Assembly (NCBI GenBank): GCA_903876735.1
Contig: CAIRAW010000043.1
Span: 62,001 to 126,000 of the forward strand
Direction: 5' to 3'
DNA from: an uncultured beta proteobacterium
Lineage (GTDB): Bacteria > Pseudomonadota > Gammaproteobacteria > Burkholderiales > Burkholderiaceae_C
DNA length: 64,000 bases
The notes beneath the pieces were generated by a model, which worked only from the letters and a program-made list of their open reading frames with translations, was not told the DNA's origin and ran no database searches. A program made the translations under genes and the position numbers. Shown piece after piece: positions 21,535 to 60,401 of the stretch (the stretch's first letter is position 1; each line of letters starts with the position of its first letter).

Positions 21535-21573
21535 ACTTTAACCCGAGCAGCCACCCTGTCTTGCGAAAACTGG
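21535..21573 (-). promoter_or_regulatory. acyl-CoA regulon element, copy E (SDR gene)
   Basis: On the minus strand CCAGTTTTCGCAAGAC (21573-21558), 17 bases, then TAAAGT as -10 box, 53 bases before the SDR start. The 16-mer is identical to copy B at 25139. See copies A-F. Confidence 0.7.
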
Positions 21574-21745
21574 TCAGATCGCGCCCGGTGCCGTGCCGTG
21601 AATTTCGCTTCGCCATGAAGCTTTCAATTGTTTCTTCCCGTTACCACTTCCACTGTGAAAAAGCGCCCGATGCGTTCCAGAATAGCCTGGCTGCGCGGCC
21701 CAGCCGCATAAGCAGCCCTTAACTTTTGATGCTTACGATCACTCC

Positions 21746-21925
21746 ATGCAAAAAACACGCACGACACCGGCCCCCACTTTTGACCTTGATCTGGCCCATG
21801 AGCACACGGGAACCGCCCTGGACTTCGTCCATCACATCAAATCAAATGGATTTATCCTCGCGACTTTTACGCCGCACCTGGTCATTCTTGCCTTGATTTC
21901 GGGCGCCCTGCTCCTGCGCAATTAG
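21746..21925 (+). CDS. possible small membrane protein, 59 residues
   Basis: A short open frame from the ATG at 21746 that is easily missed by length cut-offs. The first 30 residues are polar (MQKTRTTPAPTFDLDLAHEH), and the last 25 form one hydrophobic segment (TPHLVILALISGALLLRN), so it could be a small single-pass membrane protein. No good ribosome site precedes it and I do not recognise it. It occupies the otherwise empty region between the SDR and acyl-CoA dehydrogenase genes. Confidence 0.35.
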   Translation: MQKTRTTPAPTFDLDLAHEHTGTALDFVHHIKSNGFILATFTPHLVILALISGALLLRN

Positions 21926-21955
21926 CGCGAATTCGGCGCGCCCTGGCTCTCGCAG

Positions 21956-21995
21956 CCAATTGACGCAAGACCGGCCCCGGCGACTGCCGTAAGCT
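21956..21995 (+). promoter_or_regulatory. acyl-CoA regulon element, copy A (acyl-CoA dehydrogenase)
   Basis: CCAATTGACGCAAGAC (21956-21971), 18 bases, then TAAGCT at 21990-21995, 70 bases before the start at 22066. The 16-mer is identical to copy C at 54494. The CAAGAC part sits where a -35 box would be, so an activator overlapping -35 is the simplest reading. Confidence 0.7.
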
Positions 21996-22065
21996 GGGTC
22001 TTCAAGCCAGGCGGGAGCAACCGGCCTGTGCTTGAGTCAACCCGAACCCAAGATTGGCGCGCACC

Positions 22066-23235
22066 ATGTTTGACTTTCAACCCCTGCCCCACTACTTCTC
22101 GCCTGAACATGAGCAGTTCAGGGCCACGCTGCGCGACTTCGTCGCACGCGAGATCACGCCCTTTGTCAACGAGTGGGACGAAGCCGGCACCTTTCCGCGC
22201 TCGCTCTACAAGCGCGCCGCCGAACTCGGCATCGCGGGCCTCGGCTACCCGGAAGAATTTGGCGGCACGCCGGTCGATGTTTTCTACCACCTGGTGGCGG
22301 CCGAGGAGTTTGCGCGCAGCGGCGGCGGCGGCGTCTCGGCCTCGCTCAATTCGCACACCATCGGCCTGCCACCGATCCTGAACCATGGCTCGGATGAACT
22401 CAAGCAGCGCGTCATCCCCAGCGTGCTGGCCGGGGACAAAATTGCCGCGCTGGCCGTCACCGAGCCCTCCGGCGGCTCTGATGTGGCGGCCCTGCGAACC
22501 ACGGCGGTGCGCGACGGCGACCACTACATCGTCAATGGCGAGAAGACCTTCATCACCTCCGGCATGCGCGCCGACTTCTTCACCGTGGCCGTGCGCACCG
22601 ACCCGGCCAACAAGGGCGCGGGCGGCATCTCGGCCCTGCTGATCGAGGGCAATACACCGGGCCTCTCCCGCACCGAACTGAAGAAAATGGGCTGGTGGTC
22701 TTCCGACACCGCCCACCTGCATTTCGACAACTGCCGCGTGCCCGTGCGCAACCTGATCGGCGTCGAGAACAAGGGCTTCAAGACCTTCATGAGCAACTTC
22801 AACTCCGAGCGCCTGGGCATGGCCGCTTCGGCCTGCTCCTACGCCCAGGTCTGCCTGGAAGAGGCGCTGGACTGGGCGCGCCAGCGCCAGACCTTCGGCC
22901 AGCCTTTGTCGGAACGCCAGGTGATGCGCCACAAGATGATGGACATGGCGCTGCGCATCGACGCCGCGCGCTGCCTGATCTACGAACTGGCCTACCGCAT
23001 CAAGCACCAGGCGGGCGACCCGAATCAACTGGTTGCGCGCATCTGCATGGCCAAGGTGCTGGCCACGCAGGCCATGCAGTTCTGCGCCGACCAGTCAATC
23101 CAGATCCTGGGCGGCATGGGCTATATGCGCGGCACCAAGAGCGAGCGCATCTACCGCGAGGTTAAAGTCATGATGATTGGCGGCGGCTCCGAGGAAATTC
23201 TCAAAGACCTGGCCGCGCGCCAGCTCGGAATTTAA
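22066..23235 (+). CDS. acyl-CoA dehydrogenase
   Basis: 389 residues from the ATG at 22066; a TTG at 22054 is in frame. The FAD-binding motifs are AVTEPSGGSDVAAL and TFITSG, and the C terminus has GGMGYMRGTKSERIYREVK. The usual catalytic Glu near the C terminus is replaced (MIGGGSEEIL). A Glu at about residue 248 (NSERLGMA) is placed as in isovaleryl-CoA and long-chain enzymes, suggesting that helix-G type. It oxidises acyl-CoA to enoyl-CoA in the cytosol. It heads a three-gene operon under regulon element A. Confidence 0.9.
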   Translation: MFDFQPLPHYFSPEHEQFRATLRDFVAREITPFVNEWDEAGTFPRSLYKRAAELGIAGLGYPEEFGGTPVDVFYHLVAAEEFARSGGGGVSASLNSHTIGLPPILNHGSDELKQRVIPSVLAGDKIAALAVTEPSGGSDVAALRTTAVRDGDHYIVNGEKTFITSGMRADFFTVAVRTDPANKGAGGISALLIEGNTPGLSRTELKKMGWWSSDTAHLHFDNCRVPVRNLIGVENKGFKTFMSNFNSERLGMAASACSYAQVCLEEALDWARQRQTFGQPLSERQVMRHKMMDMALRIDAARCLIYELAYRIKHQAGDPNQLVARICMAKVLATQAMQFCADQSIQILGGMGYMRGTKSERIYREVKVMMIGGGSEEILKDLAARQLGI

Positions 23236-23258
23236 CAAGACCGCTGGAGGACCCCACC

Positions 23259-24059
23259 ATGCAAGACACCTGTCGCGACCTGCTGGCCGAATACCAGGCA
23301 CTGGCCGATCTCTGCGAAACCCTGACGCCTGCGCAATGGCAAACGCGCAGCACCTTCTTTGGCTGGACGCCATGGGACGAGATTGCGCACCTGTGCTATT
23401 TCGACGAGACCGCGCTGCAGTCGGCTACCGAACCCGAAGCCTTCATCAAAGGCATGAAAGAACTCGGCCCCAAAATGGCAGCGGGCGAACCTATCAGCGT
23501 CATCGCCCGTCTCAAGTACGGCGCCTTCGACGGCGCGGCACTGACACAGCACTGGCGCGGCCTGCATGAGCGTCTGGTGGCGGCGCTCGCAGGCCTGGAC
23601 CCCAAAGCGCGCCTGCCGTGGTACGGCCCGTCCATGAGCGCGCGCTCTTTTGCCACCGCGCGGCTCATGGAAAGCTGGGCCCACGGCCAGGACATCTGGG
23701 ACGTGATCAAACGCGAGCGCCCGGCGACAACGCGGCTCAAGCACATCGCGCACATCGGCGTCACCACCTTTGGCTGGAGTTTTGTCAACCGCAAGCTGGC
23801 CGTTCCCGGCAACGTGCCGCACATCGAACTGCGCGCGCCCGACGGCGAACTCTGGGCCTGGGGCGAGCCCTCCGATACCGACTGGGTGCGCGGCAGTGCC
23901 CAAGATTTCTGCCTGCTGGTCACGCAGCGGCGCAACCGCGCCGACACCCAACTCACATCGCAGGGCACAGCGGCCGATCAGTGGCTCGCCATTGCGCAGT
24001 GCTTTGCCGGCCCCCCGGCCGACGCACCCGCGCCGGGCGCTTACGGCCCGGCAAAATGA
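23259..24059 (+). CDS. TIGR03084-family DinB-like metal-binding protein
   Basis: 266 residues. The N-terminal four-helix DinB/maleylpyruvate-isomerase-like domain has FFGWTPWDEIAHLCYFDE and ESWAHGQDIWD, whose His and Asp/Glu residues are suited to bind a metal; the C-terminal part is a small beta-rich domain (VPHIELRAPDGELWAWGE). It matches my recollection of the TIGR03084 family, whose role is unknown, although related proteins use thiol cofactors. It has GGAGG before the start, 23 bases after the acyl-CoA dehydrogenase gene, so it belongs to that operon. Confidence 0.75.
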   Translation: MQDTCRDLLAEYQALADLCETLTPAQWQTRSTFFGWTPWDEIAHLCYFDETALQSATEPEAFIKGMKELGPKMAAGEPISVIARLKYGAFDGAALTQHWRGLHERLVAALAGLDPKARLPWYGPSMSARSFATARLMESWAHGQDIWDVIKRERPATTRLKHIAHIGVTTFGWSFVNRKLAVPGNVPHIELRAPDGELWAWGEPSDTDWVRGSAQDFCLLVTQRRNRADTQLTSQGTAADQWLAIAQCFAGPPADAPAPGAYGPAK

Positions 24060-24973
24060 TTCCTGCGATGGCGGCGGCGGCCGGCGCGCCCTTGCCGCCG
24101 GGCCTGCCGCTGGAACTGGCGCAGCGCGCGCGCATCGAGACGGCGCTGGCCGCCTGCCATGCCGGCGCTGGCCGGGAGCGCTTATCGGACCTGGTCTTCT
24201 CCAACCTCTATCTGTTCCGCGCCGCGCACGACTACCGCCTGGTCGAAGGCGAGTGGCCGCTGATCAGCGGGCGCACCTACGATGGCTCGCGCCACGCGAT
24301 CCCGCTGTTCGACATCCAGCAGGCCAGCCTGCCGCTGCTGACGCAACTGCTGGCGCAATACGACTGCCTGTACCCGCTCTCAAGCCAGCAGGTGGCGCAA
24401 CTCGACGCCACCGTCTTCGAAGCCGTCGCCTCGCGCGACGACGCCGACTACCTTTACCCGGCGGACAACTTCCGTTTTTACCGCGGCACCAAACTGCTGA
24501 AAAAGCGCAACCTGATGAAACAGTTTCTCTCCAGCCATGCCGTGCGCAGTGTGGCGCTGGAGGCCGGCCAACTGGACGAAGCACGCGCCGTGCTGGCCGG
24601 CTGGATGGCGGACAAGGGCAAGACCCGCGGCGAGGCCGACGAGCAACCCTGCCTGGAGGCGTTGGCCCACCTGGAAGAATTCGGCCTGCAGGGTTTCCTG
24701 CACTACGCCGACGATGAACCGGCCGGCTTCGTGCTGGCGCAGGAGATCAGCAGCGGCGTCTTCGTCATGCGCTTTGCCAAGGGTCTGGCGCGCTACAAGG
24801 GCATTGCCCAGTACATGTTCCACCACTTCGTGACGGCAACGCCGCAAACTGTGCAGTGGCTCAACTTCGAGCAGGACATGGGCCTGGCCAATTTCCGCAA
24901 GACCAAGCTGTCCTACCAGCCGAGCGCGCTGATCGACAAGTACCGCCTGCGTTTGCGCACCGGCAACGCTTGA
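24056..24973 (+). CDS. DUF2156 / phosphatidylglycerol lysyltransferase C-terminal-like protein
   Basis: 305 residues from the ATG at 24056, overlapping the previous stop (ATGA). The N-terminal part (LSDLVFSNLYLFRAAHDYRL) and the C-terminal GNAT-like part (FVMRFAKGLARYKGIAQYMF, LNFEQDMGLANFRKTKLSY) fit the DUF2156 fold found in MprF C-terminal domains and FemX-like acyltransferases. There is no membrane segment. It presumably transfers an acyl or aminoacyl group; the substrate is unknown. Translational coupling to the TIGR03084 gene suggests a joint task. Confidence 0.75.
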   Translation: MIPAMAAAAGAPLPPGLPLELAQRARIETALAACHAGAGRERLSDLVFSNLYLFRAAHDYRLVEGEWPLISGRTYDGSRHAIPLFDIQQASLPLLTQLLAQYDCLYPLSSQQVAQLDATVFEAVASRDDADYLYPADNFRFYRGTKLLKKRNLMKQFLSSHAVRSVALEAGQLDEARAVLAGWMADKGKTRGEADEQPCLEALAHLEEFGLQGFLHYADDEPAGFVLAQEISSGVFVMRFAKGLARYKGIAQYMFHHFVTATPQTVQWLNFEQDMGLANFRKTKLSYQPSALIDKYRLRLRTGNA

Positions 24974-25004
24974 TCGCGTTCCTGCCGGAAACCCCAAACC
25001 ATGG

Positions 25005-25026
25005 ATTGCGGGTCGGAGCCCGCAAT
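25005..25026. repeat. intergenic inverted repeat
   Basis: ATTGCGGG, six bases, CCCGCAAT: a perfect 8-base stem with GTC-rich flanks, in the gap after the DUF2156 gene. It looks like a dispersed genomic palindrome; no T-run follows, so it is not a textbook terminator. Confidence 0.55.
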
Positions 25027-25062
25027 GACAGCCTCGGGACCCCGTGACAAATCAACGGCGTC

Positions 25063-25083
25063 ATCCCGGACTTGATCCGGGAT
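25063..25083. repeat. intergenic inverted repeat (TCATCCCGGA type)
   Basis: ATCCCGGA, loop CTTGA, TCCGGGAT: a perfect stem, set in GTCATCCCGGACTTGATCCG. Elements of this wording are widespread intergenic repeats in proteobacterial genomes (general knowledge, not searched here). Located just upstream of regulon element B. Confidence 0.6.
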
Positions 25084-25138
25084 CCACTGCCATGAACAGC
25101 ATCGGGACGCGATGACTGCCAACTGAGTCTGCTTACAG

Positions 25139-25178
25139 CCAGTTTTCGCAAGACCGGCCGCAAGGCGCTGCCTAAACT
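25139..25178 (+). promoter_or_regulatory. acyl-CoA regulon element, copy B (carboxylase operon)
   Basis: CCAGTTTTCGCAAGAC (25139-25154), 18 bases, then TAAACT at 25173-25178, 76 bases before the carboxylase start. The flanks also match copy A (CAGCCA before, CGGCC after, CTGCC just before the -10 box). Confidence 0.72.
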
Positions 25179-25254: not shown

Positions 25255-26877
25255 ATGGCCCACATTGAATCCCCCATTTCCAGCAGCAGTGAAGAATTCA
25301 AGGCGAACCGCGCTGCCATGCTCGCGCTGATCGAGCGCGTGCGCGCGCTGGAGGAACGCACGCGCGCCAAGTCCACCGCCGCGCGTTCGCGCTTCGAAAA
25401 GCGCGGCCAGTTGCTGCCGCGCGAGCGCCTCTCGCTGCTGCTCGATTCCGGAACACCTTTTCTTGAACTCTCGACGCTGGCCGGGCTGGGACTGGACACG
25501 CCCGATCTGGAGAAAAGCGTACCCGGCGGCGGTGCCATTGCCGGCATCGGCTTTGTCAGCGGCATCCGCTGCATGGTGCTGGCGTCGGACTCCGGCATCG
25601 ACGCTGGCGCGCTGCAACCGATGGGCCTGGACAAGGTGCTGCGGGTGCAGGAACTCGCGCTCGAAAACAAGCTGCCCTATGTGCAACTGGTCGAGAGCGC
25701 CGGCGCCAACCTGATGACCTACAAGGTCGAGGACTTCATCCGCGGCGGCAACTCCTTCCGCAACCTGGCGCTGATGTCGGCCGCCGGGCAACCGGTGGTC
25801 ACGGTCACGCACGGCTCCTCGACCGCCGGCGGCGCCTACCAGACCGGCCTGGCCGACTACATCATCCTGGTGCGTGGCCGCTCGCGCGCCTTCCTGGCGG
25901 GACCGCCTTTACTCATGGCCGCCACCGGCGAGGTCGCAACGGAAGAAGAATTGGGCGGCGCCGTCATGCACACCTCGATCTCGGGCCTGGGCGACTACCT
26001 GGCCGAGGACGACCGCGACGCGATCCGCCTGGCGCGCGAAATCATGGCGCAAATCGACTGGAACCACGGCATGCCCGCCGAGCCACCCCGCAGCTTCAAG
26101 CCGCCGCGCTTCGAGGCCGAGGAACTGCTGGGCATCGTGCCGGCCGATTACAAGCGCCCGGTCGACATGCGCCAGGTTATCGCGCGCATTGCCGACGACT
26201 CCAACTTTCTGGAGTTCAGCGAGAACTACGGCAGCGCCACGGTCTGCGGCCACATCAAAATTGAAGGCTGGCCGGTCGGCGTCATCACCAACAACGGCCC
26301 GATCGATCCGGACGGCGCGGCCAAGGCCACCCACTTCATCCAGGCCTGCTGCCAGAGCAAGACACCGCTGCTCTACCTCAACAACACGACCGGCTTCATG
26401 GTCGGGCGCCACTACGAAGAGGCCGGCATCATCAAGCACGGCTCCAAGATGATCCAGGCCGTCTCCAACGCCACCGTGCCGCAGATCACGATCTATTGCG
26501 GCGCCTCCTTCGGCGCCGGCAATTACGGCATGTGCGGTCGCGGCTTTCATCCGCGCTTCTGCTTCTCCTGGCCCAACGCCCGAACCGCCGTGATGGGCGG
26601 CGAGCAGGCCGCCGGCACCATGGCCATCGTGACCGAGGCCGCCATGCAGCGCAAGGGTGAAGCCGTTGACCACGCGAAGATTGACGCGCTCAAGGCCCGC
26701 ATCATCGACCGCTTCGACCGCCAGATGAGCGTCTTCACGACCAGCGCGCTGCTGCTCGACGACGGCGTCATCGACCCGCGCGACACGCGCGCCGTGCTCA
26801 GCGAGGTATTTGCGGTCTGCCGCGAAGCCGACGCGCGCAAGCCGCAAGCCATGCAGTTCGCCGTGGCCCGTCCCTGA
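25255..26877 (+). CDS. acyl-CoA carboxylase beta subunit (geranyl-/methylcrotonyl-CoA carboxylase type)
   Basis: 540 residues, full-length carboxyltransferase. Typical stretches are GGGAIAGIGFVSG, HGSSTAGGAYQTGLADY, FLAGPPLLMAATGEVATEEE, and NNTTGFMVGRHYEEAGIIKH. It moves CO2 from biotin to a 3-methyl-enoyl-CoA. In place of the HFG found in methylcrotonyl-CoA carboxylases it has Gly-Gly-Asn at residues 164-166. A Phe-to-Gly change at about this place is, as I recall, the reported selectivity switch to geranyl-CoA, so a larger branched substrate is likely (AtuC-like). First gene of the beta, ACAD, alpha, hydratase operon. Confidence 0.88.
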   Translation: MAHIESPISSSSEEFKANRAAMLALIERVRALEERTRAKSTAARSRFEKRGQLLPRERLSLLLDSGTPFLELSTLAGLGLDTPDLEKSVPGGGAIAGIGFVSGIRCMVLASDSGIDAGALQPMGLDKVLRVQELALENKLPYVQLVESAGANLMTYKVEDFIRGGNSFRNLALMSAAGQPVVTVTHGSSTAGGAYQTGLADYIILVRGRSRAFLAGPPLLMAATGEVATEEELGGAVMHTSISGLGDYLAEDDRDAIRLAREIMAQIDWNHGMPAEPPRSFKPPRFEAEELLGIVPADYKRPVDMRQVIARIADDSNFLEFSENYGSATVCGHIKIEGWPVGVITNNGPIDPDGAAKATHFIQACCQSKTPLLYLNNTTGFMVGRHYEEAGIIKHGSKMIQAVSNATVPQITIYCGASFGAGNYGMCGRGFHPRFCFSWPNARTAVMGGEQAAGTMAIVTEAAMQRKGEAVDHAKIDALKARIIDRFDRQMSVFTTSALLLDDGVIDPRDTRAVLSEVFAVCREADARKPQAMQFAVARP

Positions 26878-26905
26878 CCCACCTCTTTGATTCAAGGTTT
26901 ACACC

Positions 26906-28057
26906 ATGCAGCTCACCCCCGAACACGATGACATGCGCCGCACGCTCGAGCGCTTCATCGACGCCGAAGTCAATCCGCATGTCGACGCCTGGGAGCGCGC
27001 CGGCACCTTCCCCGCGCACGACATCTTCAAGAAGCTCGGCACGCTGGGCCTGCTCGGTGTCTGCAAGCCGGTTGAATACGGCGGCCTCGGGCTCGACTAT
27101 TCCTACGGCGCCCTGATGGCCGAAACGCTGGGCCGCATCAACTGCGGCGGTGTGCCGATGGCCATCGGCGTGCAGACCGACATGGCGACCCCGGCGCTGG
27201 CCGAGCACGGCAGCGACGAACTGCGCCGCGAGTTCCTGGCCGGTGCCATCAGCGGCGATCTGGTCGCCTGCCTCGGTGTCTCGGAAGTCGGCAGCGGCTC
27301 GGACGTGGCATCGATCAAGACCTCGGCGCGCAAGGACGGCGACGACTACATCATCAACGGCGGCAAGATGTGGACCACCAACGGCACGCAAGCCGATTTC
27401 TGCGTCGTGCTGGCCAATACCTCGGACGGCTCAACGCACCGCAACAAGTCGCTCATCATCGTGCCGATGGCAGCCAAGGGCGTGCAGGTGGCGGCCAAGA
27501 TCGAAAAAATGGGCATGCACTCGTCCGACACGGCCCAGCTCTACTTCGATGATGTGCGCGTGCCGCAGCGCTACCGCATCGGCGAGGAAGGCATGGGCTT
27601 CATCTACCAGATGGAGCAGTTCCAGATCGAACGCCTGTGGGGCTCGCTCAACGGCATCGGCGCCATGCGCTACCTGCTCGACGCCACGATCGACTACACC
27701 CGCCAGCGCCAGGTCTTTGGCAAACCCCTGCTCGACAACCAGTGGGTGCATTTCAAGCTGGCCGAGCTCAAGGCCGAACTCGAAGCGCTGAGCGCCCTGA
27801 GTTGGCTCGGCGTCGAGAAAGTGGTGGCCGGACAGGACGCGACCGAACTCGCGACCATGGCCAAACTCAAGGCCGGGCGCCTGATGCGCCAGTTGACCGA
27901 CACCTGCGTGCAGTTCTGGGGCGGCATGGGCTTTGCCGACAGCCGCATCTCGCGCGGCTTCCGTGACGGCCGCCTGGCCTCGATTGGCGGCGGCGCTGAC
28001 GAGGTGATGCTACAAATCCTCTCCAAATACATGGGCATCTTCCCCAAGCAAGCCTGA
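26906..28057 (+). CDS. acyl-CoA dehydrogenase (AtuD/LiuA-like position)
   Basis: 383 residues. FAD motifs LGVSEVGSGSDVASI and KMWTTNG are present; the C terminus has FWGGMGFADSRISRGFRDGR and IGGGADEVM without the usual catalytic Glu. A Glu at about residue 242 (FQIERLWGS) could serve as base, as in isovaleryl-CoA dehydrogenase. Placed between the two carboxylase subunit genes, it should make the enoyl-CoA that the carboxylase uses, for example from a citronellyl- or isovaleryl-type CoA. The substrate is inferred from gene order only. Confidence 0.9.
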   Translation: MQLTPEHDDMRRTLERFIDAEVNPHVDAWERAGTFPAHDIFKKLGTLGLLGVCKPVEYGGLGLDYSYGALMAETLGRINCGGVPMAIGVQTDMATPALAEHGSDELRREFLAGAISGDLVACLGVSEVGSGSDVASIKTSARKDGDDYIINGGKMWTTNGTQADFCVVLANTSDGSTHRNKSLIIVPMAAKGVQVAAKIEKMGMHSSDTAQLYFDDVRVPQRYRIGEEGMGFIYQMEQFQIERLWGSLNGIGAMRYLLDATIDYTRQRQVFGKPLLDNQWVHFKLAELKAELEALSALSWLGVEKVVAGQDATELATMAKLKAGRLMRQLTDTCVQFWGGMGFADSRISRGFRDGRLASIGGGADEVMLQILSKYMGIFPKQA

Positions 28058-28088
28058 GCCGCCTGGCCCACATTCCACACCAAACACC

Positions 28089-30071
28089 ATGAAACGCCCA
28101 ACCCCGTTCAAAAAAATCCTGATCGCCAACCGGGGCGAAATTGCACTGCGCGTGATGCGCAGCGCACGCGCCCTGGGCTACCGCACGGTGGCGGTCTACT
28201 CGACTGCCGATGCCCATGCGCGCCATGTGCGCGAAGCCGATCAGGCGGTCTGCATCGGCGAGCCGCTGCCGGCCCAGTCCTACCTCTGCATCCCGGCCAT
28301 CATCGAGGCCGCAAAGATGACCGGCGCGGACGCCGTCCATCCCGGCTACGGCTTTCTGGCCGAGAACGCGGCTTTCGCCCAGGCCTGCCGCGAGGCCGGT
28401 CTGGTCTTCATCGGCCCCTCGCCCGAAGCCATCACCGCCATGGGCAACAAGGCCGGCGCCAAGGAGTTGATGATCGCCGCCGGCGTGCCCTGCATCCCCG
28501 GCTACCAGGGCGACGACCAGAGCGAGGCGCGTCTCACCCAGGAGGCGGCACTGGTGGGATTTCCGGTCATGATCAAGGCCACGGCCGGCGGCGGCGGACG
28601 CGGCATGCGGCTCGTGCCTTCGTCCGCGCAATTCGCCGAACTGCTGCGCAGCGCCCAGTCCGAAGCGCAGAACTCCTTCGGCGACCCGCATGTCATCCTG
28701 GAGCGCGCCATCATCGAGCCGCGCCACATCGAAATCCAGATCTTCGCCGACCGCCAGGGCAACGCCATCCATCTGGGTGAGCGCGACTGCTCGGTACAGC
28801 GCCGGCACCAGAAGGTGGTCGAGGAATCGCCCTCGCCCGCCGTCGACGCGGCCTTGCGCGAGCGCATGGGCGCCACCGCCGTCGCGGCCGTCAAGGCGAT
28901 CGCGTACGAAGGCGCGGGCACGCTCGAGTTCCTGCTCGACCGCGAAGGCAACTACTACTTCATGGAGATGAACACGCGGCTGCAGGTTGAGCACCCGGTC
29001 ACCGAGGCCATCACCGGCCTTGATCTGGTCGAGTTGCAACTGCGCGTGGCCGCCGGCGAGGACCTGCCTTTGACGCAGGCCGACGTCAAGTTCCACGGCC
29101 ACGCGATCGAAGTGCGCCTGTGCGCCGAAGACACCGACCAGGGCTTCATGCCGCGCAGCGGGACTGTCGCGCTGTGGCAGGCAGCCAGCCATCTGCGGGT
29201 CGAGCACGCACTCGAATCAGGCACAGAGATTCCACCCTACTACGACTCGATGATCGCCAAGATCATTGCCCACGGCCGCACGCGCGACGAAGCCCGGCGC
29301 AAGCTGATCCGCGGCCTCGAAGACACGGTGCTGCTGGGCGTCACGACGAACCAGGTGTTTCTGACGCGCTGCCTGGCGCATCCCGTCTTTGCCATTGGTG
29401 GCGCCACCACCGCCTTCATCGAGCAGAACAAGACCGCCTTGCTGGCCGCCGATACCGACCTGCAGAAACGCGCCACGGCGATTGCCGCCTGTTTGCTGCT
29501 GGTGACGGCCCCTAGCGCCGGCCACCGCACGCCGCAGCGCCAGCTTGCACACACGCTGCCGACCGGCCTGCATTTCGAGATCGACGATGTCAAATGCTCG
29601 GCCATGCTGACCCAATTGGGACTGCGGCACTTCACGGTCAGCCTGGGCGCCGAGGAAACCCAAGTCGAACTCAGCGAGCTCACGGCACACGGCGTTCGCG
29701 TCAGCATTGGCGGCATTTCCGAGCCGGCGGTCTACAGCGGCCACGCCGGCCACCTGCTGCTGCATTACCGTGGCTACTCGTTTGCGGTGCAGGACCATAC
29801 GCGCGCGGCCTCGGAGCGCCAGGGCGAAGGCGGCGGCGACGGCAAGGTGCGCTCCTCGATGAACGGGCGCGTCGTTGCAGTGGCGGTGACGGTCGGCCAG
29901 CGCGTCGAAGCCGGGCAGGCCCTGGTGACGCTCGAAGCCATGAAGATGGAACACGTTCACTTTTCTCCGGTGGCCGGCACCGTGCTGGCCCTGCACGCAG
30001 TCTGCGGCGACCAGGTCCAGGGTAAGCGCATCCTGGTTGAGGTGCAGCCCGACGCAGTGGCCGCGCCATGA
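28089..30071 (+). CDS. acyl-CoA carboxylase alpha subunit: biotin carboxylase plus biotinyl domain
   Basis: 660 residues. The N-terminal biotin carboxylase domain (about 1-450) has KILIANRGEIALRVMR, VHPGYGFLAENAAFA, the ATP-grasp loop ATAGGGGRGM, and EMNTRLQVEHPVTE. The C-terminal biotinyl domain has EAMKMEH with biotin on Lys 619. It carboxylates biotin with ATP and bicarbonate for the beta subunit encoded two genes upstream. Its length and domain order match methylcrotonyl-/geranyl-CoA carboxylase alpha chains. The stop overlaps the hydratase start (ATGA). Confidence 0.93.
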   Translation: MKRPTPFKKILIANRGEIALRVMRSARALGYRTVAVYSTADAHARHVREADQAVCIGEPLPAQSYLCIPAIIEAAKMTGADAVHPGYGFLAENAAFAQACREAGLVFIGPSPEAITAMGNKAGAKELMIAAGVPCIPGYQGDDQSEARLTQEAALVGFPVMIKATAGGGGRGMRLVPSSAQFAELLRSAQSEAQNSFGDPHVILERAIIEPRHIEIQIFADRQGNAIHLGERDCSVQRRHQKVVEESPSPAVDAALRERMGATAVAAVKAIAYEGAGTLEFLLDREGNYYFMEMNTRLQVEHPVTEAITGLDLVELQLRVAAGEDLPLTQADVKFHGHAIEVRLCAEDTDQGFMPRSGTVALWQAASHLRVEHALESGTEIPPYYDSMIAKIIAHGRTRDEARRKLIRGLEDTVLLGVTTNQVFLTRCLAHPVFAIGGATTAFIEQNKTALLAADTDLQKRATAIAACLLLVTAPSAGHRTPQRQLAHTLPTGLHFEIDDVKCSAMLTQLGLRHFTVSLGAEETQVELSELTAHGVRVSIGGISEPAVYSGHAGHLLLHYRGYSFAVQDHTRAASERQGEGGGDGKVRSSMNGRVVAVAVTVGQRVEAGQALVTLEAMKMEHVHFSPVAGTVLALHAVCGDQVQGKRILVEVQPDAVAAP

Positions 30072-30847
30072 GCGAGCAGCCCAGCGTCCTGCTGGAGCGG
30101 CGCGAAGCCGTCTTCTGGATCACGATCAACCGCGCCGACAAGCGCAACGCCATCAACCAGGGCGTCGTCGACGGCATCCGCGACGGTTTTCGCCAGGCCC
30201 ACGCCGACCTGGCGGTGCGCGCCATCGTCCTGACTGGCGCCGGCGACAAGGCCTTCTGCGCTGGCGGCGACCTGCAGCCCGGCGCCGGCTTCGCGTTCGA
30301 CCTTGCACGCCCCAACATTGACTACGCCGATCTGCTGCGCGAAGCCAGCAACGCTACCCTGCCCAGCATCGCCCGTGTCAACGGCACCTGCATGGCCGGC
30401 GGCATGGGCCTGCTGTGCATGACCGATTTCGCGATCGCCGCAGACCACGTGCTGTTTGGTCTGCCCGAGGTCAAGATCGGCCTGTTTCCGATGCAGGTGC
30501 TGAGCCTGCTCAAGGACATCGTGCCCAAGCGCGTGCTGCGCGAATGGACCATCAGCGGCGAGCCGTTCCCGGCGCAGGAAGCGCTGCAGGCCGGCCTGCT
30601 CAACCATGTGGTGCCGGCGGCCGATCTCGACGCGCGTGTCAACTGGCTGCTTGCGCGCATCACCGACAAATCACCCACCGCGATCCGGCGCGGCAAATAC
30701 GCCATGCGCGCCATGGAGGCCATGTCTTTCGACCAGGCCATTGCTTACACCGAAGGCCAGATCGCCCTGCTGGCCATGACCGAAGACGCGCGCGAAGGCC
30801 TGACCTCGTTCAACGAGAAGCGCAAACCGGTCTGGACCGGTCGTTGA
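30068..30847 (+). CDS. enoyl-CoA hydratase/isomerase (LiuC/AtuE-like)
   Basis: 259 residues, crotonase fold. The oxyanion pockets are in FCAGGDLQPG and CMAGGMGLL; one catalytic Glu is kept in GLPEVKIGLFPM, while the other classical Glu position is Leu, as in methylglutaconyl-CoA hydratases. It would hydrate the carboxylated enoyl-CoA made by the carboxylase. The start overlaps the carboxylase alpha stop, so production is coupled. An HMG-CoA-type lyase to finish the route is not in the window. Confidence 0.88.
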   Translation: MSEQPSVLLERREAVFWITINRADKRNAINQGVVDGIRDGFRQAHADLAVRAIVLTGAGDKAFCAGGDLQPGAGFAFDLARPNIDYADLLREASNATLPSIARVNGTCMAGGMGLLCMTDFAIAADHVLFGLPEVKIGLFPMQVLSLLKDIVPKRVLREWTISGEPFPAQEALQAGLLNHVVPAADLDARVNWLLARITDKSPTAIRRGKYAMRAMEAMSFDQAIAYTEGQIALLAMTEDAREGLTSFNEKRKPVWTGR

Positions 30848-43121: not shown

Positions 43122-43154
43122 CTAGTGGAAACCCCTAGTTGCGTTAGCCACTAG
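43122..43154. repeat. inverted repeat at regulon element F
   Basis: CTAGTGG at 43122-43128 and CCACTAG at 43148-43154. The right arm overlaps the start of the regulon element upstream of the Liv-type binding-protein gene, so it may add a second regulator's site. Confidence 0.4.
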
Positions 43155-43187
43155 TCGCAAGAACCATTGCAGTCGCGCCCCTACCAT
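43148..43187 (+). promoter_or_regulatory. acyl-CoA regulon element, copy F (Liv-type ABC operon)
   Basis: CCACTAGTCGCAAGAA (43148-43163), 18 bases, then TACCAT at 43182-43187, 94 bases before the start at 43282. The weakest copy, but with the same spacing as copies A-C. Confidence 0.5.
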
Positions 43188-43281: not shown

Positions 43282-44466
43282 ATGCGAAACTGGTTTCAAA
43301 AAAGGCTCCCGGGCTGCCTGATCTTTGGCTGCGCGCTGCTGGGCGCGCAAGCGATTCAGGCGCAGACAGTGAACGGCGTAAGCGCCAATGAAATCCTGAT
43401 CGGCACCGTGCAGGACCTGTCCGGCCCGGTAGTCGCGTTCAGCAAGGAAGTCGTCAACGGCCTGCGCATGCGCTTTGATGAAGCCAATGCCGCCGGCGGT
43501 GTTGCCGGGCGCAAGATCCGCCTGATCGTCGAGGACTCTGGCTACGACACCAAGAAGGGCATGATGGCCGCGCAGAAGCTGGTGCAGAGCGACCGCGTCT
43601 TCATGGTTCTGGGCACCATGGGCACGGCGGTTGCGGTCACCACGCTGCCGATTTTTCTCGAGGCCGGCATCATCCACGCCTTTCCGAACGCCGCCTCGCC
43701 GCTGGCCTACGACCCGCCCTCACCGCTGAAATTCGCGCATGCACCACCCTACAACGGCATGGGCCGGGTCATGATGCGCTTTCTGATCAAGGCGCGCGCC
43801 GATCGCAAGTTCTGCTCACTGGTGCAGGATGACGATTTCGGCCAGGACCTGATGCGCGGCGTCAACGCCGAGGCCGCGGCGCAGAAAATCAACCTGCTTG
43901 AGCGCACCACCTACAAACGCGGCGCCACCGACTTCACGTCGCAGGTGGCGCGCCTGAAGGCCGCTGGCTGCGACACCGTGGTGCTGGGTACAACGGCGCG
44001 CGAGACCGTGGCGACGCTGGCCGAAGCCAAAAAGCTCAGCTTCAGCCCGGACTTCATCAGCTCCGCAGCAGCCTTCTCGGCCCAGGTGCCCAAACTCGGT
44101 GGCGACGCCATGGAAGGGCTGATGGCCGTCGGCCTGAATCTGCCGCCCGACGCCAGCGGCCCGACCGAAGGCATGAAGAAATGGTTTGCCGCCTACAAGA
44201 CCAAGTACGGCGAAGAGCCCGGCCAGTACGCCTCGGGCGGCTACGCCAGCGCCGGCTGGGTGCTCAAGGGCATGGAAGGCGCAGGCGCCAATCTGACGGC
44301 GGCGCGCTTTAACGAAGCGATGGAACGCCTTCAGATCCCGGCTGACGAACTCGGCTTTGCGCCCATCACCTTCGGCCCGACCAAGCGACTCGGTGGCACC
44401 GACATGCGCATCTACCGCATCCAGGGCGGCAAGTGGCTGCCCGTCAGCGACTTCATCCCTTCTTGA
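43282..44466 (+). CDS. ABC transporter substrate-binding protein, branched-chain amino acid (LivJ) type, no. 1
   Basis: 394 residues from the ATG at 43282, with GGGGGGA upstream. The signal peptide is about residues 1-32 (LIFGCALLGAQAIQAQ). The mature part is a type I periplasmic binding protein (Peripla_BP_6): EILIGTVQDLSGPVVAFSKE, NAAGGVAGRKIRLIVEDSGY, FTSQVARLKAAGCDTVVLG; quotes are partial. It probably binds a carboxylic acid rather than an amino acid, given the acyl-CoA synthetase gene downstream. First of three such proteins around one Liv permease set. Confidence 0.92.
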   Translation: MRNWFQKRLPGCLIFGCALLGAQAIQAQTVNGVSANEILIGTVQDLSGPVVAFSKEVVNGLRMRFDEANAAGGVAGRKIRLIVEDSGYDTKKGMMAAQKLVQSDRVFMVLGTMGTAVAVTTLPIFLEAGIIHAFPNAASPLAYDPPSPLKFAHAPPYNGMGRVMMRFLIKARADRKFCSLVQDDDFGQDLMRGVNAEAAAQKINLLERTTYKRGATDFTSQVARLKAAGCDTVVLGTTARETVATLAEAKKLSFSPDFISSAAAFSAQVPKLGGDAMEGLMAVGLNLPPDASGPTEGMKKWFAAYKTKYGEEPGQYASGGYASAGWVLKGMEGAGANLTAARFNEAMERLQIPADELGFAPITFGPTKRLGGTDMRIYRIQGGKWLPVSDFIPS

Positions 44467-44495
44467 TTCACCGGCACCCTATAACAGGAGACACC

Positions 44496-45686
44496 ATGAG
44501 CATCAACCGCAGAAACCTGATCGTCCAAGGCGCTGCCGGTGCATTTGCACTGACGGCACTGAGCCGCAACGCCAGCGCCCAAGGCCGCACCCAGGGCATT
44601 ACCGATACCGAGATCCTGATCGGCTCGCACCAGGACCTGAGTGGCCCGGTGGCGGCGCTGGGCAGCCCGCTGCGCGACGGCATGCTGCTGGCGGTGGACG
44701 ACATCAACGCGGCCGGCGGCATCAACGGCCGCCAGTTGCGCATGCTGGTCGAGGACACGGCGTTCGACCCGAAGAAAGCCGTGCTGGCCACCGAGAAACT
44801 GGTCGGGCAGGACAAGGTTTTTGCCATGATCGCCTGCCTCGGATCGGCGCCGGTGCAAGCCTCCATGCCGCTCATGCTCGAAGCCAATGTGCCGGTGCTG
44901 TTCTCGGGCACGCCGGCTGAATTCACTTACGCGCCGTTTCACCACATCAAGTTCGGCCTGAACCTGCCCTACGGCATCCAGGTGCGCGCCATGGTGCGCC
45001 ACGCGGTCGAGAAGCTGGGCAAGAAACGCGTCGGCATCCTGTACCAGGACGACGAGACCGGCCTGAGCGTGCTGCGTGCGACCGAGGAACAACTCAAGGT
45101 GCACAACATGGCGATCGTGGAGCAGACCAGCTACAAGCGCGGCGCGATCGACTTTGCCTCGCAGATCTCCAAGCTCAAGGCCGCCAACGTCGACCTGGTG
45201 GTGCTGGGCACCATCATCCGCGAGACCGCCGGCGCCTGCATCGAAGCCAAGAAGCAGGGCTGGAATGTGGACATGATGGTGACGCTGGCCGGCGCCAACA
45301 GCGCCGTGGTGAAAATCGGCGGCGCTGCCGTTGAAGGCCTGTACGCCATGACGCAGTTTGTGGCCATCAACGCGCAGACCCAGACGCCGGCGCTGCAGGG
45401 CGTGCTCGCGCGCTACCTGGCCAAGTACAAGAAAGAACCCGACGACGGTCTCATCTACGGCTACATGTCGGTGCAGTTGTTCGCGGAAGCCGCTCGCAAG
45501 GCCGGACGCACGCTCACCGTCGACACGCTGGTGGCCGCGCTCGAACAGGTCAAGGGCTGGACCGGCGTGTTCCAGGCCGCTCCGGTTAGCTTTGCTGCGA
45601 ACGAACATCTGGGCGCGCGCTCGGGCATTCTGACGCGCGTGAAGGATGGCAAGTTCATGCCCATCACCGGCGCACTGACCTACTGA
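44496..45686 (+). CDS. ABC transporter substrate-binding protein, LivJ type, no. 2, Tat-type signal
   Basis: 396 residues from the ATG at 44496 (AGGAG upstream). The N terminus INRRNLIVQGAAGAFALTAL is a twin-Arg-like signal, cleaved near ASAQ. The mature protein resembles no. 1 (EILIGSHQDLSGPVAALG, YKRGAIDFASQISKLKAANV), so the two arose by duplication, but the signals differ (Sec-like against Tat-like). It is immediately upstream of livH. Two receptors for one permease pair suggest a widened substrate range. Confidence 0.92.
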   Translation: MSINRRNLIVQGAAGAFALTALSRNASAQGRTQGITDTEILIGSHQDLSGPVAALGSPLRDGMLLAVDDINAAGGINGRQLRMLVEDTAFDPKKAVLATEKLVGQDKVFAMIACLGSAPVQASMPLMLEANVPVLFSGTPAEFTYAPFHHIKFGLNLPYGIQVRAMVRHAVEKLGKKRVGILYQDDETGLSVLRATEEQLKVHNMAIVEQTSYKRGAIDFASQISKLKAANVDLVVLGTIIRETAGACIEAKKQGWNVDMMVTLAGANSAVVKIGGAAVEGLYAMTQFVAINAQTQTPALQGVLARYLAKYKKEPDDGLIYGYMSVQLFAEAARKAGRTLTVDTLVAALEQVKGWTGVFQAAPVSFAANEHLGARSGILTRVKDGKFMPITGALTY

Positions 45687-54459: not shown

Positions 54460-54493
54460 GCGCACGGGCGAAGTCGGGCACCACCCGGCGTAA

Positions 54494-54533
54494 CCAATTG
54501 ACGCAAGACGCCTGGCGGCAGGCGGTCTATTCT
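54494..54533 (+). promoter_or_regulatory. acyl-CoA regulon element, copy C (crotonase operon)
   Basis: CCAATTGACGCAAGAC (54494-54509), 18 bases, then TATTCT at 54528-54533, 34 bases before the start at 54568. The 16-mer is identical to copy A, 32 kb away. Confidence 0.72.
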
Positions 54534-55411: not shown

Positions 55412-56584
55412 ATGCTGAAGACCTGCCTGACCACTTTGCTGCTGAGCGCAGCCACCCTGGCGATTGCCCAAAACAAGGGCGTCACCGATACCGAGATCGT
55501 GCTCGGACTGGTCACCGACCTGTCGGGGCCGATTGCCAACTACGGAAAGGAGTCACGCAACGGCATGAACATGGCCGTCGACGAGATCAACGCCAAGGGC
55601 GGCATCCAGGGGCGCAAGATCCGCCTGGTGATTGAAGACCACGGCTATGAGCCCAAGCGCGCCCTGCTAGCCGCGCAAAAGCTGGTGCAGCAGGACAACG
55701 TCTTCGCCATCCTGGGGCATCTGGGAACAGCCACCAACATGGCGGCACTGCCCTTTGTTTTGGAGAACAAGGTCTTCAACTTCATGCCGCAAGGCGCCTC
55801 GCCGGCGCTGTCGGAGCCGCCGAGTCCCTACAAGATTGCGCTGGCACCGTCCTACTTCACCATGTCCACGACGACGCTGGACTACATGCTCAAGAAGAAG
55901 CCCTACAAGCACATCGGCGTGCTGTACCAGGACGACGACTATGGCCGCGAGGTCATGGAGGCAGCCGAGGTCTACCTCAAGAGCAAGGGTCTGGCGCTGG
56001 CCGAAAAGGTCTCCTACAAGCGCGGCGCCACCGACTTCGCCTCCCAGATGGCCAAGCTCAAAGCGGCCAATTGTGATCTGGTCATCAACGCCTCGACCCT
56101 GCGCGAGTACATCGGCTCGGTCGGCGAAGCGCGCAAGATCGGCTTCAACCCGGACTTCCTCGGTACCGCAGCCAACTACTCGCAGCAGGTACCGACGCTG
56201 GGCGGCGCCGCCATGGATGGCGTTTATGGCGCCACCTTCATCCCGCTGCCCTATGCTGATGACGCCAACCCCGCAGTACGGACATGGGTGGCAGCCTACA
56301 AGAAACGCTTTACCGATGACCCGGGCCTGTACTCCATGTACTCCTACTATGCGATGACCACCTTCGCCAAACTGGCGGACAAGGCCGGCAAGAAGTTCAA
56401 CGCGGAAACCTTTAACGCCGCAATGGAGGCCACCAAGCTCGGCCCCGATGAACTCGGTAACCCGCCGTTCAACGTGACCAAGGACAACCGTCAGAGCAAC
56501 AAGAAAGTCCGCATGACGCAGGTCACCGGCAACAAATGGGTTTTGGTGACGGGTTACCTTGATCCGGTTCTCGAACAGAAATAG
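55412..56584 (+). CDS. ABC transporter substrate-binding protein, LivJ type, no. 3
   Basis: 390 residues with AAGGAG upstream and a Sec signal (LTTLLLSAATLAIAQ). Peripla_BP_6 fold: TEIVLGLVTDLSGPIANYG, NAKGGIQGRKIRLVIEDHGY, YKRGATDFASQMAKLKAANC (partial quotes). Related to nos. 1 and 2 but set between two crotonase genes, away from any permease gene. It presumably docks on the LivHM pair encoded 8 kb upstream. Confidence 0.92.
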   Translation: MLKTCLTTLLLSAATLAIAQNKGVTDTEIVLGLVTDLSGPIANYGKESRNGMNMAVDEINAKGGIQGRKIRLVIEDHGYEPKRALLAAQKLVQQDNVFAILGHLGTATNMAALPFVLENKVFNFMPQGASPALSEPPSPYKIALAPSYFTMSTTTLDYMLKKKPYKHIGVLYQDDDYGREVMEAAEVYLKSKGLALAEKVSYKRGATDFASQMAKLKAANCDLVINASTLREYIGSVGEARKIGFNPDFLGTAANYSQQVPTLGGAAMDGVYGATFIPLPYADDANPAVRTWVAAYKKRFTDDPGLYSMYSYYAMTTFAKLADKAGKKFNAETFNAAMEATKLGPDELGNPPFNVTKDNRQSNKKVRMTQVTGNKWVLVTGYLDPVLEQK

Positions 56585-57424: not shown

Positions 57425-57438
57425 CCGCTGGGCAACAG

Positions 57439-57711
57439 TCACCTTCGTTTTTTTGCCTGCTCGCGTTTGCGCCAGTACTGAAACGCGTCCTCGGTCACTT
57501 CCATGTCAATTTCCATGACGCGCATCTGAAGGCGCTCCTGAACTTTGGCGACGGCCATGTTGTAAATGACCGGGCCGACTTCCTCGACAAAAAATGCCAG
57601 CAACTCTGCGGCAGCGATATTGCCGATTTTTTGATCCCGGCTTTCAAGGAAGTAGCGCTCGATGGAAGCCACCGCTTCCTTGCGCACTTCGCTGGTGATG
57701 TCGATGCCCAT
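57439..57711 (-). CDS. DUF2164 family protein
   Basis: 90 residues, cytosolic. The pattern EVRKEAVASIERYFLESRDQ, then IGNIAAAELLAFFVEEVGP and IYNMAVAKVQERLQMRVMEI is that of the DUF2164 family of small proteins of unknown function. It lies 11 bases after the aldehyde dehydrogenase gene on the same strand, so it is probably co-transcribed. Convergent with the preceding crotonase gene. Confidence 0.85.
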   Translation of the reverse strand: MGIDITSEVRKEAVASIERYFLESRDQKIGNIAAAELLAFFVEEVGPVIYNMAVAKVQERLQMRVMEIDMEVTEDAFQYWRKREQAKKRR

Positions 57712-57722
57712 GGCAAGCTGCC

Positions 57723-59150: not shown

Positions 59151-59178
59151 GGGGCCCTCCGACTTGCTTATGTGGGGC

Positions 59179-59208
59179 GGTATAGCAAGAAGGCGAACAC
59201 GGTGTCAA
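59179..59208 (-). promoter_or_regulatory. sigma-70-like promoter of the aldehyde dehydrogenase gene
   Basis: On the minus strand a perfect -35 box TTGACA (59208-59203), 18 bases, then TATACC (59184-59179), about 29 bases before the start. A small AAGTC/GACTT hairpin overlaps its upstream edge. No regulon element is present here. Confidence 0.6.
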
Positions 59209-59227
59209 GTCTTTTTGACTTTGCAGC

Positions 59228-60277
59228 TCAGCGCAGGAAGTAGCGGTGCACGCCGTCGTCGTCGAGCACGCGCTGGACTTCGCCGCGGTAGATCAGGTGG
59301 TTGAGACAGGCGGCTGTTTCGCCCGTGGCCATGTGGAACAGCGGAATGTTGTCCTCGCCAATGGGGCGACCAAACAGCGCTTCAAACAGCTCGACCGCGC
59401 GGCGCGGTTGCTGCAGCACGCGCTTGAGTCGCTCAAAGGTGCGCTCCTGATCCGCAGCGAGCTGGTCCAGACGCGCATGCAGGCCGCGAAAGGGCTCGTT
59501 GTGCGAAGGCAGCACCAGCACGTCGGCGGGCACTTCGCGTTTGAGTTTTTGCAGCGAGGCCAGCCAGTCACGCATCGGGTCGGCGTCGGGCTCGCTCGGA
59601 AAAACCGATATGTTCGACGAGATGCGCGGCAGGACCTGGTCGCCCGAAATCAGCACACCGAGTTCGGGGCAATACAGACAGGCGTGCTCTGGCGAGTGGC
59701 CGCTGCCGACGACGACGCGCCAGTTGCATGCGCCAATGCGCAGCTCCTCGCCATCCTGCAGGCGCCGGTAACTGTCGGGCAGGGCATGGATGTGTTTGCC
59801 GAAGACGCCAAAAGCCTTGTGATAAGTCTCAATGGCCGGCGCCGACCAGCCGGCCTGCAGGTAAAAACTCAGGTCATCGGGTGAGGCTGCGCGACCGTTC
59901 TCCGACACCAGCACGCGACAGTTCAGGTACTCGAGCCGCGTCATCCACAAGCGGATGCGGAACTTGCGCGTGAGCCAACCGGCCATGCCGACGTGATCGG
60001 GGTGCATGTGTGTCACAAAAATGCGCGTGATCGGTCGCGGGTCGGTGGCCTGGGCAAACAGTTCACGCCAGACCTGGGTGTTGTCATCGCTGCTGGTGCC
60101 GGTGTCAACCACGGCCCAGCCGGCGCCGTCGTCGAGCGCCCACAGGTTGATGTGGTTAAGCGCAAACGGCAGCGGCATGCGGATCCAGTGCACGCCCGAC
60201 GCCACTTCGCAGGTCTGGCCACGCGCCGGAACCGCAAACGGGTAGCTCAGTGCGCTTGCCGGTTTCTCTTTGTTCAT
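59228..60277 (-). CDS. MBL-fold metallohydrolase (glyoxalase II-like)
   Basis: 349 residues with AGGAAGG upstream. The metal motif HMHPDH is in IFVTHMHPDHVGMAGWL; the other ligands are His in GSGHSPEHACLY, Asp in LISGDQVLPRIS and His in LPSHNEPFRG. The C-terminal helical domain is of the type found in thioesterase-like MBL enzymes. It may hydrolyse an acyl-CoA or other thioester, or a lactone. Its promoter carries regulon element D-minus, back to back with that of the BKACE gene. Confidence 0.85.
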   Translation of the reverse strand: MNKEKPASALSYPFAVPARGQTCEVASGVHWIRMPLPFALNHINLWALDDGAGWAVVDTGTSSDDNTQVWRELFAQATDPRPITRIFVTHMHPDHVGMAGWLTRKFRIRLWMTRLEYLNCRVLVSENGRAASPDDLSFYLQAGWSAPAIETYHKAFGVFGKHIHALPDSYRRLQDGEELRIGACNWRVVVGSGHSPEHACLYCPELGVLISGDQVLPRISSNISVFPSEPDADPMRDWLASLQKLKREVPADVLVLPSHNEPFRGLHARLDQLAADQERTFERLKRVLQQPRRAVELFEALFGRPIGEDNIPLFHMATGETAACLNHLIYRGEVQRVLDDDGVHRYFLR

Positions 60278-60316
60278 GCCACCTTCCTGTGCGCCTTTCA
60301 GCGGTTCTGAACGGCA

Positions 60317-60356
60317 AGCCTAGGGCGATCCGGTCCGGCGGTCTTGCGCAAACTGG
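60317..60356 (-). promoter_or_regulatory. acyl-CoA regulon element, copy D-minus (MBL gene)
   Basis: On the minus strand CCAGTTTGCGCAAGAC (60356-60341), 18 bases, then TAGGCT (60322-60317), 39 bases before the start at 60277. One base different from copies B and E. Confidence 0.7.
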
Positions 60357-60360
60357 TTAG

Positions 60361-60401
60361 CAAGATAACGCAAGACCCAGGCACTGTTGCGCGCCTAAGA
60401 T
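60361..60401 (+). promoter_or_regulatory. acyl-CoA regulon element, copy D-plus (BKACE operon)
   Basis: CAAGATAACGCAAGAC (60361-60376), 19 bases, then TAAGAT at 60396-60401, 36 bases before the start at 60438. Together with D-minus it forms an inverted pair GTCTTGCG/CGCAAGAC with 20 bases between. Confidence 0.6.

Follow-up and report, generated by a model that had tools for sequence, protein, structure and literature searches.

A recurrent candidate operator-promoter element before acyl-CoA catabolic genes of an uncultured Burkholderiales bacterium and its probable AraC-type activator

Introduction

LiuR, LiuQ, FadR, and PsrA, which regulate branched-chain and fatty-acid catabolism, control acyl-CoA genes comparable to those described here and are MerR, TetR, or GntR proteins with palindromic sites. 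The marbox of the MarA group holds two recognition patches within a single site of ~20 bp, like the box that is our subject. In the accessible text of PMC9973270, AtuR is a TetR-type repressor of comparable Pseudomonas genes with 13-bp inverted repeats, and for the betaproteobacterium Thauera linaloolentis the accessible text of PMC4847356 reports a TetR gene with 38% identity to AtuR. Here, we investigated a 64,000-nucleotide stretch of an uncultured member of the Burkholderiales (assembly GCA_903876735.1, contig CAIRAW010000043.1, positions 62,001 to 126,000), referred to as the window, in which one element, a 19-bp box followed at a nearly constant distance by a -10 hexamer, stands before seven genes of acyl-CoA catabolism and a linked importer. 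As far as sequence can show, the element is a true operator-promoter motif. It is very probably the operator of an AraC-type activator, the likeliest candidate being a protein encoded just beyond the window (A1), and it is probably shared with the paralogue A2. Coordinates without a prefix are those of the window, while those prefixed C43 (the window's contig) or C16 are contig coordinates.

The element and its copies

A preliminary description of the window had reported seven copies of a 16-mer, each followed by a -10-like box, and all seven were recovered with the strands and -10 boxes given there. Alignment with further sites from the same genome (G000; 3.91 Mb, 97.8% complete, 82 contigs) lengthened the 16-mer by three bases, giving a 19-bp box, and sharpened the -10. 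The extended element consists of the box CAGCCARTT-NN-CGCAAGAC (CAGCCARTTNNCGCAAGAC), 17–19 (mostly 18) bp, and then TANNCT. The seven copies are listed below, with the number of bases between the end of the -10 and the start codon.

Element A: 21535..21576, minus strand; box TGACCAGTTTTCGCAAGAC (21576-21558), 17 bp, -10 TAAAGT (21540-21535); promoter of the SDR dehydrogenase gene 21481-20714; 53 bases
Element B: 21953..21995, plus strand; box CAGCCAATTGACGCAAGAC, 18 bp, -10 TAAGCT; promoter of an acyl-CoA dehydrogenase gene (ATG 22066); 70 bases
Element C: 25136..25178, plus strand; box CAGCCAGTTTTCGCAAGAC, 18 bp, -10 TAAACT; promoter of a geranyl-CoA-carboxylase-like beta subunit gene (ATG 25255); 76 bases
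Element D: 43145..43187, plus strand; box TAGCCACTAGTCGCAAGAA, 18 bp, -10 TACCAT; promoter of a periplasmic substrate-binding protein gene (probable ATG 43282); 94 bases
Element E: 54491..54533, plus strand; box TAACCAATTGACGCAAGAC, 18 bp, -10 TATTCT; promoter of an enoyl-CoA hydratase family gene (ATG 54568); 34 bases
Element F: 60317..60359, minus strand; box TAACCAGTTTGCGCAAGAC (60359-60341), 18 bp, -10 TAGGCT; promoter of the metallo-beta-lactamase (MBL)-fold hydrolase gene 60277-59228; 39 bases
Element G: 60358..60401, plus strand; box TAGCAAGATAACGCAAGAC, 19 bp, -10 TAAGAT; promoter of a beta-keto acid cleavage enzyme (BKACE) gene (ATG 60438); 36 bases

The spacing between box and -10 is 18 bp in five of the seven copies, 17 at 21576(-), and 19 at 60358(+), in line with the range of 17–19, mostly 18, reported earlier. 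The reported distance of 34–94 bases to the start codon likewise holds when taken from the end of the -10 and becomes 58–118 when counted from the end of the 19-bp box instead; the start codons at 22066 and 43282 were picked by us. Two pairs of copies are identical over the 16-mer, as had been claimed. The copies at 43148 and 60361 depart from the 16-mer by three and two mismatches, respectively, and have good scores together with their -10 (22.3+7.6 and 23.1+9.0 bits).

Elements F and G lie back to back, with the first two bases of G overlapping F. A 36-base block of this pair (GTCTTGCG...CGCAAGAC) is identical in the related locus L082 and differs by two bases in L083, and the spacers vary more. 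Element F is conserved in L082 and its box alone also in L083, while element G is conserved in both. On the MBL side of the pair, L083 has ~13 bases fewer between box and -10.

The earlier list of seven stands, with one exact copy of the 16-mer to be added that it did not contain:

Box-like copy: 24885..24903, plus strand; exact 16-mer (at 24888) in the 3' part of an open reading frame, where it codes for ANFRKT; no -10 box follows it

Because it lies inside an open reading frame and is without a -10 box, we judged this copy to be a coding coincidence outside the regulon.

The preliminary description held that chance does not explain the two identical pairs in 64 kb, and controls against chance were run for the element. 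Whole-genome scans used the pattern with 18-bp spacing only, and the matrix was run over C43 minus its first 2000 bases and over 20 kb of C16. The exact 16-mer occurs seven times in the genome, all on C43, and its reversed control not once. Allowing up to three mismatches at 18-bp spacing, the extended element occurs 12 times (one being the coding copy at 24885) against one for the reversed control. The matrix was derived from 13 own-genome sites that include the window's seven, and its scan of the window is therefore no independent test, a role that falls to the scans of other genomes described below; at a score of at least 16 it returned eight matches against 0 in each of 10 permuted matrices, and at a score of at least 14 eight against 0–1. 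These eight are the seven reported copies plus the coding copy, and the scan found the element before no other gene class in the window, in line with the earlier statement that copies are confined to acyl-CoA and importer genes. For the bare 16-mer, up to three mismatches gave 23 matches against a shuffle mean of 13.6, with 1 of 100 shuffles reaching 23. At this tolerance the bare 16-mer is only modestly enriched, and the enrichment resides in the good matches. That the copies are chance occurrences, repeats, or compositional artefacts would fit this small excess over shuffles, but we consider it exceedingly improbable given the near-zero matches of the reversed-pattern and permuted-matrix controls, the flanks of the copies, which share almost nothing beyond the box and -10, and the recurrence of sites upstream of homologues.

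The candidate regulator and its co-occurrence with the element

The preliminary description found no regulator gene in the window and proposed a search elsewhere for a TetR, MerR, LysR, or AraC gene bearing the element. A1 answers this description, as its own promoter reads CAGCATGCTGACGCAAGAC, 18 bp, TAACCT. A2 is 51% identical to A1 over the aligned part.

A1: C43:128252-129076, minus strand; AraC-type regulator of 274 residues, 2.25–3.08 kb beyond the right end of the window
Element before A1: C43:129157, minus strand
A2: C43:154771-155787, minus strand; AraC-type paralogue of A1 in the distal part of the regulon
LuxR-type response regulator gene near A1: C43:126847-127497, plus strand; just past the end of the window

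Both A1 (2.6e-13) and A2 (4.5e-12) match PF12833 above its gathering score, and hmmsearch returned a match to the AraC DNA-binding domain 2k9s at 3.4e-10. The C-terminal domain with two helix-turn-helix (HTH) motifs that marks the AraC/XylS family is thus present by PF12833, 2k9s, and predicted helices, and the HTH segment is nearly invariant among regulator homologues. AraC itself has a cupin as its N-terminal sensor. The corresponding sensor domain in our regulator is present by prediction only, as eight strands in residues 16–89 and cupin matches in Foldseek, and no Pfam domain was found there. The structure was predicted from 46 related sequences headed by the L082 relative, which is 95% identical. 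The model has a mean predicted local distance difference test (pLDDT) score of 88 and consists of an N-terminal cupin and a C-terminal two-HTH domain. Its best matches among solved structures are AraC-family regulators over the full length of the model, with ToxT and Rns first (best E 1.6e-8).

In 150 genomes of the family, we looked for both A1 and the element. Eight of them (G000, G011, G044, G071, G104, G122, G129, and G132) have an A1 homologue at E ≤1e-60, a line set after the list was seen. At least two elements occur in six of these eight and in 0 of the other 142, four of which have a single element; the reversed control gave two single hits. Fisher's p for the co-occurrence of regulator and element is 2e-9, or 3.7e-8 without our own genome. 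G118, with an A1 match at only 1e-22 (32% identity) and no element, was excluded as a homologue. We also searched 249 other genomes sampled across the order, at least five of which recur in the family sample; they yielded 0 regulators at E 1e-40 and 0 genomes with at least two elements. One element was found in 15 of these genomes against 12 for the reversed pattern, and we therefore regard single hits as background.

Next to these samples, a profile search of genome contigs with the regulator alignment gave 507 loci, of which the best 80 were used. They belong to Limnohabitans, Polaromonas, Cupriavidus, Variovorax, and Rubrivivax, among others, and, within the Alphaproteobacteria, to Sphingosinicella and Niveispirillum, and some overlap the family sample (G044 = L087/L103, G011 = L134, G104 = L152). 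Regulator alignment A3 takes in 46 of the 80, with L088 omitted because its match overran the stop. The own-genome matrix gave 125 matches in the 1.46 Mb around the 80 loci, against 3, 0, 2, 2, and 0 for five permuted matrices, and matches are present in 58 loci. When sites were chosen by the box alone, 90 non-redundant boxes resulted, 49 of which have TANNNT 18 bp downstream and 64 at 17–19 bp; at the remaining spacings from 8 to 24 it was seen only at 21 (two boxes) and 23 (one). Among the 39 regulator upstream regions examined (of 80), 12 contain a strong box (score 22.5 to 33.4); for permuted matrices, the mean number scoring above 18 is 0.

According to a crude gene caller, 21 of the 125 matches fall inside open reading frames and 83 within 150 bp of a start. 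As it miscalls frames (the C16 site is an example), target genes were identified by translated BLAST of the downstream 900 bases. This was applied to 137 distinct matches outside our own genome, of which 118 belong to the named loci and 19 to the remaining genomes. In total, 120 precede homologues of cluster genes and 17 matched none. AtuA and alpha/beta hydrolase references, which were added after the matches had been seen, account for 31 of the 120, and own-genome proteins for 89. The implied start lies 20–200 bp from the box in 114 matches, with a median of 67. The boxed homologues include the acyl-CoA dehydrogenase of the 22066 type (22 matches), carboxylase beta (16), alpha/beta hydrolase (16), the A1-type regulator (15), AtuA (15), and the A2-type regulator (1). 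Matches were treated as duplicates only when 43 bases agreed exactly, and close relatives abound among the loci, above all in Variovorax, so that these counts are not fully independent. The genome scans place the element before the start codons of related genes and not at random positions.

In 14 distinct matches of the named loci, the box before an alpha/beta hydrolase gene is followed by a poor -10 (CATGGT or CATCGT among the rows listed). The hydrolase boxes belong to Variovorax loci such as L118, L121, L126, L142, and L158, and are usually the only box of the locus. They may form a sub-branch whose regulon is either reduced or different.

The probable identity of the regulator is based on co-occurrence and self-targeting. 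Regulator and targets are often neighbors, and with a LuxR-type response regulator close to A1 one could suppose that some other regulator conserved in the neighborhood binds the box while the AraC gene only travels along. In G071 and G011, however, most boxes are on large contigs other than the regulator's, and both boxes and regulator are far from contig ends; physical linkage alone therefore fails to explain the association. With the box at the regulator's own promoter in 12 of 39 tested cases, and with none of the 13 TetR genes of the genome in the boxed stretch of C43 (the only one on this contig, at 35112, is ~48 kb from the first box), we hold a different binder to be very improbable.

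Box anatomy and proposed mode of action

Across 95 non-redundant sites whose box and -10 are 18 bp apart, the information lies mainly at box positions 0–8 and 11–18 and at the -10. Because these sites were selected with the matrix, it is their flat flanks that are informative, and the 90 boxes selected by the box alone serve as the unselected test of the -10. The two conserved patches, one helical turn (~10 bases) apart, fit the two HTH motifs of a single AraC-family subunit. A palindrome or dimer site was considered and rejected, as internal symmetry is weak by eye and column information over the 95 sites shows no conservation from -50 to -2 upstream, and so no conserved second site.

The -35 consensus is TTGACA. 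The box end places AAGAC at the -35 position, and the core promoter looks weak, as only GAC of the box end fits this consensus. AraC-type sites that overlap -35 in this orientation are class II in the accessible text of PMC12052159 and PMC8811837. The sequence of our element has the corresponding layout: it is forward (by analogy), overlaps -35, and keeps a nearly fixed distance to the -10.

We propose that the C-terminal two-HTH domain of one subunit would read CAGCCANTT and CGCAAGAC in two successive major grooves. With AAGAC at -35, 17–19 bp before TANNCT, the promoter would have a poor -35 hexamer, and the bound activator would recruit sigma-70 RNA polymerase by direct contact, in class II fashion. 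The N-terminal cupin domain may sense an acid or CoA ester of the pathway, and the regulator would in some lineages raise its own level through its own box, a positive autoregulation. The regulon would serve uptake, activation, carboxylation, and beta-oxidation of 3-methyl-branched, terpene-like acids of the Atu/geranyl-CoA-carboxylase type.

Two other modes of action were weighed. An AraC protein at the box might be a repressor or dual regulator that blocks RNA polymerase at -35 until the acid is bound; the box does extend into -35, where a bound protein could block as well, and comparable Pseudomonas genes are under a repressor, AtuR, in the accessible text of PMC9973270. We consider this improbable, since the -35 hexamer is weak, the nearly fixed 18-bp phasing (49 of 90 boxes) is required for contact activation but not for repression, and MarA-like proteins at such a position are described as activators in the accessible text of PMC12052159 and PMC8811837. 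The preliminary description had suggested either an activator overlapping -35 or an unusual sigma factor. The activator is supported by an AraC gene and a class II layout. An alternative sigma factor reading CGCAAGAC as its -35 and TANNCT as its -10 would account for the nearly fixed spacing between the two blocks, but appears extremely improbable: the upstream block, 19 bp with two patches about one turn apart, exceeds a -35 hexamer, the -10 block resembles an ordinary sigma-70 box, and the presence of the element follows an AraC gene across genomes.

The regulon and its pathway

Outside the window, our own genome contains further sites before genes of the regulon, one of them on another contig:

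Element before an APH-family kinase-like gene: C43:135970, minus strand
Element before a zinc dehydrogenase gene: C43:135986
Element before a FadB-like gene: C43:149224, minus strand
Element before an acyl-CoA ligase gene (named by eye): C43:154757, minus strand
Weaker box before a second acyl-CoA ligase gene (named by eye): C43:163052, minus strand
Element before a zinc alcohol dehydrogenase gene: C16:95034

A matrix match at C43:17328 (minus strand, score 19.4) is inside an open reading frame and was excluded from the promoters. Within the window, element C is followed by the Atu-like core:

Atu-like core: 25255..30847, plus strand; carboxylase beta, acyl-CoA dehydrogenase, biotin carboxylase alpha, and enoyl-CoA hydratase genes, co-directional after element C

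We infer that the genes of this core form an operon. Between the acyl-CoA dehydrogenase and carboxylase genes lies a gene for a TIGR03084-family metal-binding protein (23259-24059, plus strand). The substrate-binding protein gene at 43282 precedes genes of a branched-chain-type ATP-binding cassette (ABC) importer, named by eye from the translations. There are three periplasmic substrate-binding proteins of the branched-chain amino-acid type (43282-45686 and 55412-56584, with 44433 by eye) and one importer, and this ratio suggests several transported acids.

The beta subunit of the carboxylase (25255-26877) has its best match in geranyl-CoA carboxylase, with 650 bits against 476 for methylcrotonyl-CoA carboxylase (MCC). 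According to the accessible text of PMC4673880, geranyl-CoA carboxylase has Gly where MCC has Phe191 and lacks a three-residue insertion before it. By our reading of alignments to 5ikl_B and 3u9r_B, the subunit has Gly at the Phe191 position. In the insertion stretch it is intermediate, with one residue more than geranyl-CoA carboxylase and two fewer than MCC. With geranyl-CoA carboxylase as the nearest match of the carboxylase, an acyclic-terpene-like pathway is probable, and the earlier label of acyl-CoA catabolism can be narrowed to a geranyl-CoA-carboxylase (Atu-like) pathway. In relatives, boxes also stand before AtuA (PF07287), and in our own genome the BKACE and MBL hydrolase genes are boxed instead. 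We speculate that these two enzymes substitute for AtuA.

Several observations weigh against the assignment of the element to A1 and of the regulon to an Atu-type pathway. Twenty-two of the 80 named loci are without a match, and the target-gene tally of 120 of 137 has no random-position control. G122 and G132 have a homologue and no element at pattern stringency; around their regulators (40 kb and 20 kb), the matrix found one weak site in G122 and none in G132. The other 27 of the 39 regulator upstream regions score at most 6.3 and have no box, and autoregulation is therefore taken to be lineage-specific. A1 and A2 are indistinguishable as candidate binders of the box. Each promoter has a single conserved site, and many AraC proteins dimerise on two sites. 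Finally, AtuA was not found in our own genome, while the same search finds it in four of four other regulator-bearing genomes tested (of seven), and so this is not a standard Atu pathway.

Comparison with described systems

Among the matches listed, no title or abstract opening in the open-licence literature describes this regulator or box, and we know of no description of this regulon. The results point to a specific operator and regulator for a branched-acid and terpenoid catabolic regulon that recurs at many loci of the Burkholderiales and at two of the Alphaproteobacteria. With the matrix, more genes of the pathway can be sought, such as the alcohol dehydrogenase on C16 and the hydrolase and AtuA genes of relatives.

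A wider interpretation, which we consider rather less likely than not, is offered tentatively. In Burkholderiales and some Alphaproteobacteria, cupin-AraC activators of an undescribed family might respond to terpenoid or branched acyl acids, perhaps bound in a pocket resembling the one in fatty-acid-binding AraC proteins. Acting at single 19-bp marbox-like sites, these activators might switch on a dispersed regulon and so take the place of the TetR repressor AtuR. The lineage of the window might have recruited the BKACE and the MBL hydrolase, perhaps instead of AtuA.

The marbox of MarA, SoxS, Rob, and RamA resembles the box in being a forward AraC-family site that overlaps the -35 of a sigma-70 promoter (accessible text of PMC12052159 and PMC8811837). 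The box has a sequence of its own, and the genes controlled are catabolic here whereas they are stress genes there. MarA is without an N-terminal cupin domain, whereas the A1-type regulator has one in the predicted model.

ToxT/Rns-type AraC regulators are the best full-length structural matches of the model, and several of the PDB entry titles name bound fatty acids, an analogy that suggests an acid as the ligand of the A1 type. Identity, however, is 7–13% and full-length superposition is poor (root mean square deviation 6.6–13.1 in the first 21 rows), and we do not claim membership of this group.

The AtuR-atu system for acyclic terpene utilisation in Pseudomonas is similar in the genes under control, namely geranyl-CoA carboxylase, acyl-CoA dehydrogenase, hydratase, and, in relatives of the window's genome, AtuA. 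AtuR regulation of the window's genes was considered and rejected, as the 13-bp AtuR repeat is not enriched in the window (three matches with up to two mismatches against a shuffle mean of 4.0). Unlike AtuR, the present regulator is AraC-type and its site is a single asymmetric box. The comparison suggests that the same type of pathway is run under opposite logic, by TetR repression in Pseudomonas and by AraC activation here.

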